Virus record (IMG/VR): IMGVR_UViG_3300050130_000077
Span: 1 to 20,361 of that record
Length of the DNA stretch: 20,361 nucleotides
Source: a virus
Strand: one strand, 5' to 3'
Part shown: positions 13,193 to 16,424 of the stretch, in pieces
Layout of the letters: each line of letters starts with the position of its first letter
How positions within the stretch are numbered: the stretch's first letter is position 1
The notes under the pieces: model-generated
Seen by the model: only the letters and a program-made list of their open reading frames with translations
Told to the model about the DNA's origin: nothing
Database searches by the model: none
Program-made: the position numbers and the translations under genes

Positions 13193-13912
13193 TCACGCTG
13201 CTCCATGGCGGGCCGTCCCTTCTATCCACCGGGCGTAGTCCGGGAGCCGGCCGCCGTTGCGGAGGAACGTGTGCACCAGCTCGTACACCTCGCCGAGATC
13301 CTGCGGGACACGGCGGACGCAGGTAAGCACGGCTTTCACGGCGGCGGCGAGGCTGTCCAGGACCTCGGCCGCGGTCTCGCAGATGGCGGTGGACTGCCGG
13401 GCATCGCGGGCCCGTGCGTCCGCGTCCTCGACAGCAGCCTGAGCAGTATCTATGGCGGACTGCTTCGCGCCGTGGCAGCCGGTGCACGGCTCATTTACCG
13501 GCCATGCGATCGCGGCAGTGAGCTGGCGGTGGGCGGCATCAAGGTCAGCCTGGGCGACGGTGAGGGCCTTCTGTGCGGACTCCTGGAGTCCCGCGACCTC
13601 GGCGAGCAGGGCTGCGGCGGCGCGGCGGCGCTGCTCAAGCTGGTCTTCGGCGTCGCTGACACCTTCCAGGAACTCCCACTCTGACCGGTAGCCGGTGTTA
13701 ATGCGCCGGTCGGACTGGCTGCCGGCGTCATAGCGGACGGCCATGGCCGGGTCGAGAGCCCGGAGCGCGGCGATCAGGCCGGTGACGGCGCCGCGGTCCG
13801 CGCCGGCCTGCTCGGCGCCGGCGAGGACTTCGCCGGCCAGCTCGGCCAGGTCGCCGGTCTCGGCGAGGATCTCGGCCTGGATGTACAACTCGCGGGCCTG
13901 CTCTGCACCCAT
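13193..13912 (-). CDS. Coiled-coil protein with CxxC (239 aa)
   Basis: The start is taken at ATG 13912 (MGAEQARELYIQAEILAETG), 8 bases from GAAGGGG; GTG 13921 and GTG 13915 are alternatives. The protein is almost wholly helical and heptad-like, with QARELYIQAEILAETGDLAE, DAEDQLEQRRRAAAALLAEV and ALTVAQADLDAAHRQLTAAI. A single CTGC at mid-length may bind metal. The C-terminus (VYELVHTFLRNGGRLPDYAR, WIEG) is a pattern I remember from proteins encoded beside TraB-like genes. It is the first gene after the repeat cluster at 13962-14035. Structural, oligomeric and possibly membrane- or DNA-associated roles are all open. Confidence 0.7.
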   Translation of the reverse strand: MGAEQARELYIQAEILAETGDLAELAGEVLAGAEQAGADRGAVTGLIAALRALDPAMAVRYDAGSQSDRRINTGYRSEWEFLEGVSDAEDQLEQRRRAAAALLAEVAGLQESAQKALTVAQADLDAAHRQLTAAIAWPVNEPCTGCHGAKQSAIDTAQAAVEDADARARDARQSTAICETAAEVLDSLAAAVKAVLTCVRRVPQDLGEVYELVHTFLRNGGRLPDYARWIEGTARHGAA

Positions 13913-13961
13913 CACGCTCACCCCTTCCCGGCTACGTTGAGTGATGGTCCACTCCCCCGCT

Positions 13962-14035
13962 GATCGTTCGCGGGATCGTTCGCAGGGATCGTTCGCGAAC
14001 GTTCACAGCGCTGGTCAGTGACGCCGCGAACGTTC
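13962..14035. repeat. Cluster of five GCGAACG(A/T)TC repeats between the translocase gene and the next gene
   Basis: The minus strand carries GCGAACGATC three times (13971-13962, 13983-13974, 13996-13987; spacings 12 and 13). The plus strand carries GCGAACGTTC at 13995-14004 and 14026-14035. The third minus copy and first plus copy overlap to form an inverted pair, GATCGTTCGCGAACGTTC. The cluster fills half of the largest intergenic gap in the window, directly downstream of the FtsK/TraB-like gene. TraB translocases of Streptomyces bind short direct repeats at a clt locus, often near traB. A regulator operator or iterons are other possibilities. Confidence 0.8.
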
Positions 14036-14069: not shown

Positions 14070-16424
14070 TCACTGAACGTCACCCGTCCCGGCATCCGGC
14101 GATCCGTCATCCCCGGTGCCCGCAGGCAGCAGGGTCAGGTGTCCTCGCTGGCGGGGTCTCCCCATCCCGGCTAGCTCGCGGGCCTTCAGCAGCATTTCCC
14201 GGGTGTCGTCATCGCACTCGACCAGGCCGCTGGCGACCGCATCGGCGAGCATCTCAATCGTGCCGTATGGCCTGGTCACAGCCTCGGAGTCCAGCCCGGC
14301 CGCCTCTGGCTCCGCTGTGTTACCGGCCAGTAGCCAGCGGGACGCCTGGCCGCTCTTGACCGTCACGGCAACCCCGGCCTTCCGGGCGGCGACCAGGTAC
14401 TCATACGCCTTCGTCTTGCCCGTGCCGATCGCCGCGGCGAACTCCGTGGCGGTGGTCCCCTTCTCCAGCAGCGGGAGCATCTTCGACACTGCGTGCGCGG
14501 GAACGCCGGGGATCATCCGCGCTGTCCGCGCGGCCGGAGCCGGGACGGAAGGGGCTTCCGGGGGAGGGGTCGCGCCGGCCGGCCGGGCGTGCCACCGCTG
14601 GTTACCGCCAGGTAGCAGGCCGACAGCGCGGGCGAGGCGGCCCCGCAGGCTGTCCGGGTCATCGGACGCGGGTAGTCGACCGCTGTCGTCAACGTCCTGC
14701 TGAGGCTCGGGCTGCCCGTAGCCGTCCAGGTCGAGCCCTGGCCCCGGGAGAGCAGGCCGGCCCGCCGGGTCGCGCTGCCAGATGATGTTCCGCTGCTGCT
14801 CGCCGATCGTCCCGATGTTGAACGCCCGGCCCCGGGCCACGACCCGCTTGGCCATCGGCTTCCAGTGCTGGAAGTAGCCAGGCTCGCCCTTGGAGTACTC
14901 GCTGATGTCCGGCATGTCATGCTCGGCGCCGGTCGCGTGGCGGGACTCCGACGCGCGGGTCATGTTGCCGATCAGGACGTCGGTCAGGTTCGCCCGGACC
15001 CCGCCGCCGCCGGTCCACTGCTGCACCGCCCGCTGGCTGGCCAGGACCAGGATAACGGCGGCCGAACGCCGCTTGCTGGCCAGGAACTCGATCCCGGACT
15101 GCGCGCCGGGGACCTTCAGGGCCTCGTCGACCTCGTCCACCAGGATCACCACGGCCGGGTCTGCCGGCGTCGGCTGGAACACCGAGTCCCCGGTGATCAC
15201 GTGGGTGGCAGACCGGGCGGTGATCAGCTCCTGCGCGTACTGCAGGACCGCGAGGATCTTGTCGCACGTCCCGGCCGGCTCGTCGGCCAGGACCGACCCG
15301 GCCGCAGTCCCGGCAGCCAGGTCAGCCCACGCCAGCTCATCGCCGACCTTCGCGCCGTTGACCTGAAGCATCACCGCGTCGTCCATCGCGGTGATCCGCT
15401 CGCGGAAATTATCGAGCACGGTAGTTTTCCCCATGCCGCCCGCCGCATACACGCCGATGACCTTCCCGCCGTTCTCATCCCACAGCGAGATACTGGCGAC
15501 CTCGCCTGTCTCCGGGACGACCAGCAGCGGCACCGGGTCGCGGACCGAGGCCACGGCGGGGAAGTAATCAGCGAACTGAGAGCCGGGATCGATCATCGGA
15601 TGCCGGACCGGCCCCTCGATCGACGGGTCCTCATAGCGGATGTCGACCAGCAGCCATCCAGGTTTCGGGGTGGTGATGTCGATGTTGCCGTAGTCCATGC
15701 CGAGATGGTGCAGCAGGTTCTCCGCTACCCCCTCCGGGTGGGCGGCGATCTGGGATGCCCGGCCGCTGCGGCTCCCCGGGGAGCTGGTCAGCAGCAGCTG
15801 CTCGCCGAGCAATGTCGGGATGACGTTCACGAGGTCGAAGCCGCCCAGGCCGATCAGGTGGGCGATCAGGTGCCACCAGGTTTTCCGGCGCACCAGGGCG
15901 GCGGCAGCCTCCCGCTGGTCCCGCGCGTCCTGCACGGCCGGATGGCGCCGCAGCCACCGGTAGCCGAAGTAAGCCCCGGCCACGTAGACGACGGTCGGCC
16001 AGAAGCCGGGCGGGGCGAGCGGGCCCCAGCGGGCGGCGGCGGTGATCCACCCGCCCGCGGCCGCGGCGACGCCGGCCGCCTCACTGGGCAGGAATCGCTG
16101 CCGGGCGGGCCGGCCGGCGGCCAGCGCCCGGTCATACCTCCAGGTGTGCCACGCCCACACCAGCCATGTCAGGACGGTGACGGCAGCCGCGGCCAGCACG
16201 GTGTCCAGGAGCCGGACGCGGGCCAGGTACATCAGCCACGCGGCCGGCCACGTCACCAGGATCCCGGTGAGCGGCATCCGCTCGGCCGGCGCAGCCATAT
16301 GCCAGGCGCGGAAACGCCGCCACGCCGACTCGGGCACCATCGGCCCGGCCGTGTCCTGCAGGTCCTCAGGATGGCCTGGGACCGGGGACGGCCGGGTGAA
16401 AGTGTCCGGGTCGGCGGACGGCAT
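14070..16424 (-). CDS. Membrane-anchored FtsK/TraB-like DNA translocase (784 aa)
   Basis: FtsK/SpoIIIE/TraB proteins are hexameric ATPases that pump double-stranded DNA. In Streptomyces, TraB alone moves plasmid DNA between mycelial cells. Here residues about 50-95 and 113-158 hold four hydrophobic helices. Walker A is AAGGMGKTT (327-335), Walker B is AVVILVDEVDEA (424-435), and a sensor-like ILVLASQR follows (458-465), then TDVLIGNMTR. After a Pro-rich linker (555-635), residues about 645-700 form a winged helix (AVSKMLPLLEKGTTATEFAA, GTGKTKAYEYLVAARKAGVA), matching the place where TraB and FtsK carry their DNA-recognition gamma domain. The ATG has GAGGA 9 bases upstream. The gene follows a string of small membrane genes and precedes a repeat cluster. 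A true TraB function, rather than chromosomal FtsK or a plasmid-partition role, is inferred from context. Confidence 0.85.
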   Translation of the reverse strand: MPSADPDTFTRPSPVPGHPEDLQDTAGPMVPESAWRRFRAWHMAAPAERMPLTGILVTWPAAWLMYLARVRLLDTVLAAAAVTVLTWLVWAWHTWRYDRALAAGRPARQRFLPSEAAGVAAAAGGWITAAARWGPLAPPGFWPTVVYVAGAYFGYRWLRRHPAVQDARDQREAAAALVRRKTWWHLIAHLIGLGGFDLVNVIPTLLGEQLLLTSSPGSRSGRASQIAAHPEGVAENLLHHLGMDYGNIDITTPKPGWLLVDIRYEDPSIEGPVRHPMIDPGSQFADYFPAVASVRDPVPLLVVPETGEVASISLWDENGGKVIGVYAAGGMGKTTVLDNFRERITAMDDAVMLQVNGAKVGDELAWADLAAGTAAGSVLADEPAGTCDKILAVLQYAQELITARSATHVITGDSVFQPTPADPAVVILVDEVDEALKVPGAQSGIEFLASKRRSAAVILVLASQRAVQQWTGGGGVRANLTDVLIGNMTRASESRHATGAEHDMPDISEYSKGEPGYFQHWKPMAKRVVARGRAFNIGTIGEQQRNIIWQRDPAGRPALPGPGLDLDGYGQPEPQQDVDDSGRLPASDDPDSLRGRLARAVGLLPGGNQRWHARPAGATPPPEAPSVPAPAARTARMIPGVPAHAVSKMLPLLEKGTTATEFAAAIGTGKTKAYEYLVAARKAGVAVTVKSGQASRWLLAGNTAEPEAAGLDSEAVTRPYGTIEMLADAVASGLVECDDDTREMLLKARELAGMGRPRQRGHLTLLPAGTGDDGSPDAGTGDVQ

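Follow-up and report, generated by a model that had tools for sequence, protein, structure and literature searches.

A candidate transfer-locus repeat array behind a putative TraB/FtsK-type translocase gene in an actinobacterial phage

The clt locus of the Streptomyces plasmid pWTY27 is made up of 16 bp of traA and the adjacent 159 bp, which contain 7-bp repeats bound by TraA. The direct repeats are TGACACC, in four copies, and CCCGCCC, and inverted repeats are present in addition (PMC3583192). The clt or TRS loci of pSVH1, pJV1 and pIJ101 are clusters of 5−9-bp repeats read by an FtsK-like translocase (PMC3583192, PMC4170104), and the TraB protein of pSVH1 reads its repeats through a C-terminal winged helix (reviewed in PMC3583192 and PMC4170104). 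Here, we compare these plasmid loci with a repeat array found directly behind a putative translocase gene of a phage.

The array lies in the viral record IMGVR_UViG_3300050130_000077, of which the whole stretch from position 1 to 20,361 was analyzed (20,361 nucleotides, referred to as the window). The window is 99.9% identical to bases 54,441−74,350 of the 74,380-bp contig G001, the parent phage. Because G001 carries genes for phage tail, portal and terminase together with a tyrosine recombinase and a large serine recombinase, we assign it to the temperate actinobacterial phages. Positions 1−454 of the window have no alignment to G001, and the C-terminus of the portal and the sequence beyond differ between the two records. 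The portal gene (415−3612, minus strand, 1065 amino acids) appears to be interrupted by an intein beginning with CYSDDTEVLTDRGW, as indicated by a marginal LAGLIDADG match, PHROG matches to intein-bearing families, and flanking matches to portal proteins. In the early region of the phage (G001:C1, ~1060−1180, locus L011), a palindromic, operator-like motif of the CACCAGAATTGGTG type is present three times in 100 bp.

The translocase gene (14070−16424, minus strand) encodes 784 amino acids and is followed in the same direction by a gene for a 242-residue protein with no assigned function (13193−13921, minus strand). The gap between them measures 148 bp, from the translocase stop at 14070 to the next start at 13921 or, with the best fit to a ribosome-binding site, the ATG at 13912. 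Within this gap, the array occupies positions 13962−14035. The sequence-only reading had described five copies of GCGAACG(A/T)TC here, three in one direction at 12−13 bp and two in the other with an overlapping inverted pair, and its description proved exact in every coordinate. Three direct units GCGAACGATC are found on the minus strand (13962−13971, 13974−13983 and 13987−13996), with starts 12 and 13 bp apart, and two inverted units GCGAACGTTC on the plus strand (13995−14004 and 14026−14035), the second one 31 bp from the first. The third direct unit and the first inverted unit overlap in the central palindrome CGTTCGCGAACG (13990−14001), and a one-mismatch copy at 13997−14006 (minus strand) is the opposite strand of the palindromic GAACGTTC. 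The array had rightly been placed directly downstream of the translocase gene, since the minus-strand reading direction of this gene puts the repeats 3' of its stop codon. Counted on the coding strand, the units start 34 (−), 65 (−), 74 (+), 87 (+) and 99 (+) bp after the stop, and the array as a whole spans 34−108 bp past it.

In 5000 dinucleotide shuffles of the 148-bp gap, neither its number of 7-mer copies nor its count of repeat pairs was ever reached. By 8-mer pair count, the array ranks at the top of the repeat clusters of the 74,380-bp G001, which contains no further exact copy of the unit outside the array. A cruder test across the window, based on the most copies of any 8-mer per 75 bp, was not extreme (34 of 200 shuffles), because shuffled DNA of 69% G+C yields CCGG-type repeats by itself.

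In its position directly 3' of the translocase gene and its combination of short direct and inverted repeats, the array resembles the clt of pWTY27. The units, however, are different, and the pWTY27 locus begins inside traA, is located on a plasmid and has demonstrated TraA binding, whereas the array of the window is putative and located in a phage. With the loci of pSVH1, pJV1 and pIJ101 it shares the cluster of short repeats accompanied by an FtsK-like translocase, which is here predicted to read them. It differs from these in the repeat sequences, in the divergence of its translocase, which is too great for a PF01580 match, and from pIJ101 also in location, as the clt of that plasmid lies near korB and not behind tra. 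A more distant likeness is found in FtsK with KOPS and SpoIIIE with SRS, hexameric pumps for double-stranded DNA that recognize 8-bp motifs with a C-terminal winged helix; these motifs are scattered genome-wide with polarity, in contrast to the one local array seen here.

The translocase contains N-terminal membrane helices, a Walker A motif (AAGGMGKTT), a Walker B motif (VVILVDEVD) and a predicted C-terminal helix-turn-helix at approximately residues 643−700. For residues 643−682, AlphaFold predicts three helices at low confidence (pLDDT ~60−65), with values of 33 (poor) for the entire protein and 50 (only fair) for the C-terminus. The putative winged-helix C-terminus claimed from the sequence corresponds to this low-confidence prediction of three helices. 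The protein has no match to PF01580 (FtsK_SpoIIIE), a profile that also misses four of its Streptomyces relatives. Marginal matches were obtained to AAA_22 (E 0.0028) and to an FtsK/SpoIIIE-like PHROG (E 0.0015), and a sequence search of the PDB gave only weak matches to FtsK (E 0.08) and to a PapI-type protein (E 0.03), the latter not reproduced with the single sequence.

Searching with tblastn at 1e-5 returned no match in 72,556 plasmids and 50,697 phages. The lead to the Streptomyces family came from a loose search (E up to 10) of all PLSDB plasmids, in which uncharacterized Streptomyces plasmid proteins (E 3e-3) ranked as the nearest relatives outside the translocase's own phage kind. Full-length scans of genome contigs returned nothing in the first scan and one Streptomyces locus in the second. 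In a profile-profile comparison (hhalign), the two phage sequences, of which the second is introduced below, aligned with 12 Streptomyces relatives over 163 ATPase columns at a probability of 95% (E 2.6e-8); the C-terminal domain could not be aligned with those of the Streptomyces family. By its membrane N-terminus, its Walker A/B ATPase and its homology to known Tra proteins, the protein belongs with the TraB-type translocases. By the PF01580 domain, the criterion that defines Tra in PMC3218068, it falls outside them. The earlier label "TraB-like" therefore holds as remote homology and not as a PF01580 match, and the protein is best described as a putative translocase that probably works like TraB but stands outside the PF01580 family.

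A second phage, G002 (59,944 bp), has a single block in common with G001, which consists of the WhiB gene, two membrane protein genes, the translocase gene, the gap and the next gene. Outside this block, no gene in common was found at the level searched, capsid and terminase genes included. In the window, the block includes the WhiB regulator (19250−19756; PF02467, E 2.9e-23), which has a related gene in G002, a membrane-anchored protein (17767−18480; 68% identical in G002) and a membrane protein (16839−17750; 72%), all on the minus strand. The membrane-anchored protein is possibly a wall hydrolase as judged by eye, and had no family match in Pfam or PHROG and no match in the PDB. Identity between the two phages is 83% for the translocase and 86% for the gene after the gap. 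Beyond the latter, the window encodes a membrane protein with a helix-turn-helix-like C-terminus (12256−13206, minus strand), which appears DUF2637-like by eye only and has no match in Pfam or PHROG. Inside this gene, CTGACCTGAA/GTGACCTGAA occurs five times (12446−12667), with four plus-strand copies within ~130 bp; it resembles the spacer motif described below, without being identical to it.

The gap of G002 keeps the array on this second backbone with a drifted unit, GCGAACGACTCC. One inverted unit (GATCGTTCG) is accompanied by the direct units GCGAACGACTCC, GCGAACGACTCC and GCGAAAGATC at a pitch of 12 bp, and the spacer contains CACTGGCCAGCG, with CACTGACCAGCG as its counterpart in the window. 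Between the two translocases, the putative recognition helix region GKTKAYEYLxAARKAGVA differs by one residue, while the remainder of the C-terminal domain diverges more than the ATPase. G002 further carries strong tandem repeats of the GAGCTGGCCCC and GCAGGTACAGCCTTCCGGGCAG types in or near coding sequence (G002:C1, ~60−290 and 52370−52620).

Of 298 Streptomycetaceae genomes searched with a profile, 41 contained homologous translocase genes. The comparison covered 34 loci, of which two are those of the phages and 32 come from Streptomycetaceae and plasmids; three pairs among them are near-duplicates. For each locus, we scored the excess of hexamer repeats (p ≤ 0.01) in the 250 bp past the translocase stop against four flanking 250-bp windows. 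The excess was significant in 26 of the 34 gaps, as opposed to 3, 4, 4 and 8 of 34 in the flanking windows. Arrays of this kind accordingly stand behind most of the distant homologues; by the hexamer-repeat test, none was seen behind L021, L047, L049, L059 and L060. The sequence-only reading had made its proposal depend on conservation beside homologous translocase genes, and such conservation is present, in the architecture with its helical spacing and not in the sequence. The units are specific to each lineage (GATCCGTC, CTGCTCA, CCAATCA, CCGATCA/GATCGGC, GATGCGTC, ACCCGGT, GGCCTGTCC and CCTGCCG, and in plasmids CTCTAC for pFP1 and CCTGGAC for pFP11).

Pooled over 30 non-redundant gaps, the distances between repeats peak at 9−12, 20−23, 31−34 and 40−44 bp (z up to 30). 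These peaks at ~11, 22, 32 and 43 bp correspond to roughly one turn of the helix and multiples thereof, whereas coding control windows show distance peaks only at multiples of 3. Forward and reverse units form separate, opposed blocks, and each site is therefore a large imperfect inverted repeat. Compared with the family, the array of the window has a pitch of 12−13 bp instead of 11 and fewer units than most plasmid sites. The phasing seen across the family is left unexplained by neutral repeat expansion, or by a transcript hairpin that ends the translocase message, both of which would do without a protein reader. The two outer units and their spacer can indeed fold into an RNA hairpin of 15−16 bp (z −2.2 for a 157-nt stretch), but a T tract and an Rfam match are absent and the arm sequences are not conserved in G002, and we regard such an origin as highly improbable.

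In 17 of 31 gaps, a spacer of ~31 bp contains the invariant TGACCTGC or its complement, which is present in 0 of 31 cases in each of five control windows. The near-invariant STGACCTGCR is independent of the repeat unit and recurs, in the first 200 bp past the stop, in many of the Streptomyces sites among L044−L072, L073 (pFP1) and L075 (pFP11); a host factor or a conserved part of the translocase are candidates for its reader. In the window, the 31-bp spacer holds CTGACCAGCG (14009−14018, minus strand), one mismatch from STGACCTGCR, and G002 has CTGGCCAGCG in its place. The resemblance is suggestive only, and we rejected TGACCTGC as independent proof for the array of the window, where one-mismatch matches to STGACCTGCR are too frequent (18 per 20 kb).

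The plasmids pFP1 and pFP11 connect this family to conjugation. The Tra protein of pFP1 fits the family profile (E 2.5e-52) and is listed with the Tra proteins of conjugative plasmids in PMC3218068, and conjugation of both plasmids is the topic of a 2008 paper, judging from its citation in PMC9195940. The gaps of both have the array design of the family. As in the window, lineage-specific units in opposed blocks are located directly 3' of traB, and a membrane gene stands beside it, annotated as DUF2637 in the plasmids and DUF2637-like by eye in the window. Unlike the window, the plasmids have the units given above, a perfect TGACCTGC spacer motif and a MobF relaxase. When the plasmids are considered in full, the gap ranks with the stronger repeat regions but is not unique, as other regions score equal or higher. 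We found no description of a clt for pFP1 or pFP11 in the available literature.

To relate the unit to the parts of the protein, we used a Pearson Mantel test with a profile-defined core on those loci that have a clear unit, counting units with three or more copies. Unit similarity correlated with how similar the last 115 residues are (r 0.49), also when the ATPase core was controlled for (partial r 0.41, p 0.0005). With the C-terminus controlled for, the correlation with the ATPase core was r 0.04 (p 0.20). Of the pairs with similar C-termini, 19 of 48 had a unit in common, compared with 8 of 323 pairs whose C-termini are dissimilar. A rank-based test done earlier (Spearman, with a cruder fixed-offset core) was not significant (p 0.10). 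In these sequence comparisons, unit identity follows the C-terminal domain and not the ATPase core. A C-terminal domain that reads the unit would be expected to produce such covariation, and the C-terminal domain of TraB of pSVH1 was shown to read its repeats (PMC3583192).

The same results bear on an operator, at which a repressor acting as a dimer or oligomer, or the translocase as autoregulator, would bind the inverted pair and control the next operon. The array ends ~40 bp ahead of the start at 13912/13921, CGTTCGCGAACG is an overlapping inverted pair, and WhiB and helix-turn-helix-like proteins also belong to the module common to both phages. Across the family, however, the array stays behind the translocase gene while the gene after it varies, with at least 18 unrelated families represented, which assigns the array to the translocase and not to the next operon. 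Repeat identity moreover tracks the translocase C-terminus, a dimer site needs fewer than multiple helically spaced units, and no promoter or terminator consensus was found in the region, with actinobacterial promoters being poorly covered. An operator is thus unlikely. Of the two functions originally proposed, clt or operator, we prefer the first, because the unit tracks the C-terminal domain of the translocase and the genes found downstream have no relationship to one another.

Arrays of phased short repeats likewise characterize replication iterons and some partition centromeres, where they are bound by an initiator or a partition protein. In the unrelated viral contig L094, the unit recurs at the same pitch (GCGAACGGTC-GT-GCGAACGATC-AG-GCGAACGATC-GTTCG; 10732−10751 and around, 12 bp) within an ORF of 488 aa that is flanked by recT and a DnaB-type helicase gene, and this array is probably a replication origin. 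Sequence alone therefore does not prove the reader of the unit. Among the 25 matches in an exact-unit scan of viral contigs, a related translocase was found only in the same phage. Near 14 kb of the window, on the other hand, Pfam and PHROG recognized no replication initiator gene beside or around the array, and no helicase or ParA-like gene beside it. The helicase of the phage is ~54 kb away on the contig, and the arrays of the family track the translocase gene and not a rep or par gene. We consider iterons or a centromere improbable here, slightly more so than an operator.

We therefore favor, with a probability of roughly 0.7, a clt-like transfer or loading site that would be read by the C-terminal helix-turn-helix domain of the translocase. 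Such an array would be a cis-acting locus, required for transfer, where the adjacent TraB/FtsK-type translocase binds the units and loads onto double-stranded DNA. The C-terminal domain of each subunit would read one 10-bp unit, and units about one helical turn apart could align several subunits along the same face of the DNA and nucleate a ring, with opposed blocks permitting assembly in either direction. The ATPase would then drive duplex DNA through a pore in the membrane or septum; from docking onward, we infer these steps. The phage may be what is transferred from cell to cell, or its DNA may be passed across a septum, and movement between cells, spread along hyphae and prophage segregation are possible uses.

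More tentatively, and at somewhat less than even odds, temperate actinobacterial phages may carry a complete one-protein conjugation module for double-stranded DNA that moves between backbones and comprises WhiB, membrane proteins, translocase, clt and a further membrane protein. Its clt would represent an undescribed general design of helically phased opposed arrays with a lineage-specific unit set by the translocase C-terminal domain, and usually with a 31-bp spacer that holds the near-invariant TGACCTGC. Few clt sites have been mapped so far, and a family-wide rule for place, spacing and the protein part that sets the unit would make loading sites predictable from sequence in many elements, and the specificity between motor and site testable by domain and site swaps. 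If this holds true, a single element could have two routes of spread, the virion and TraB-type transfer, which for phages raises the possibility of a conjugation-like spread of proviruses.
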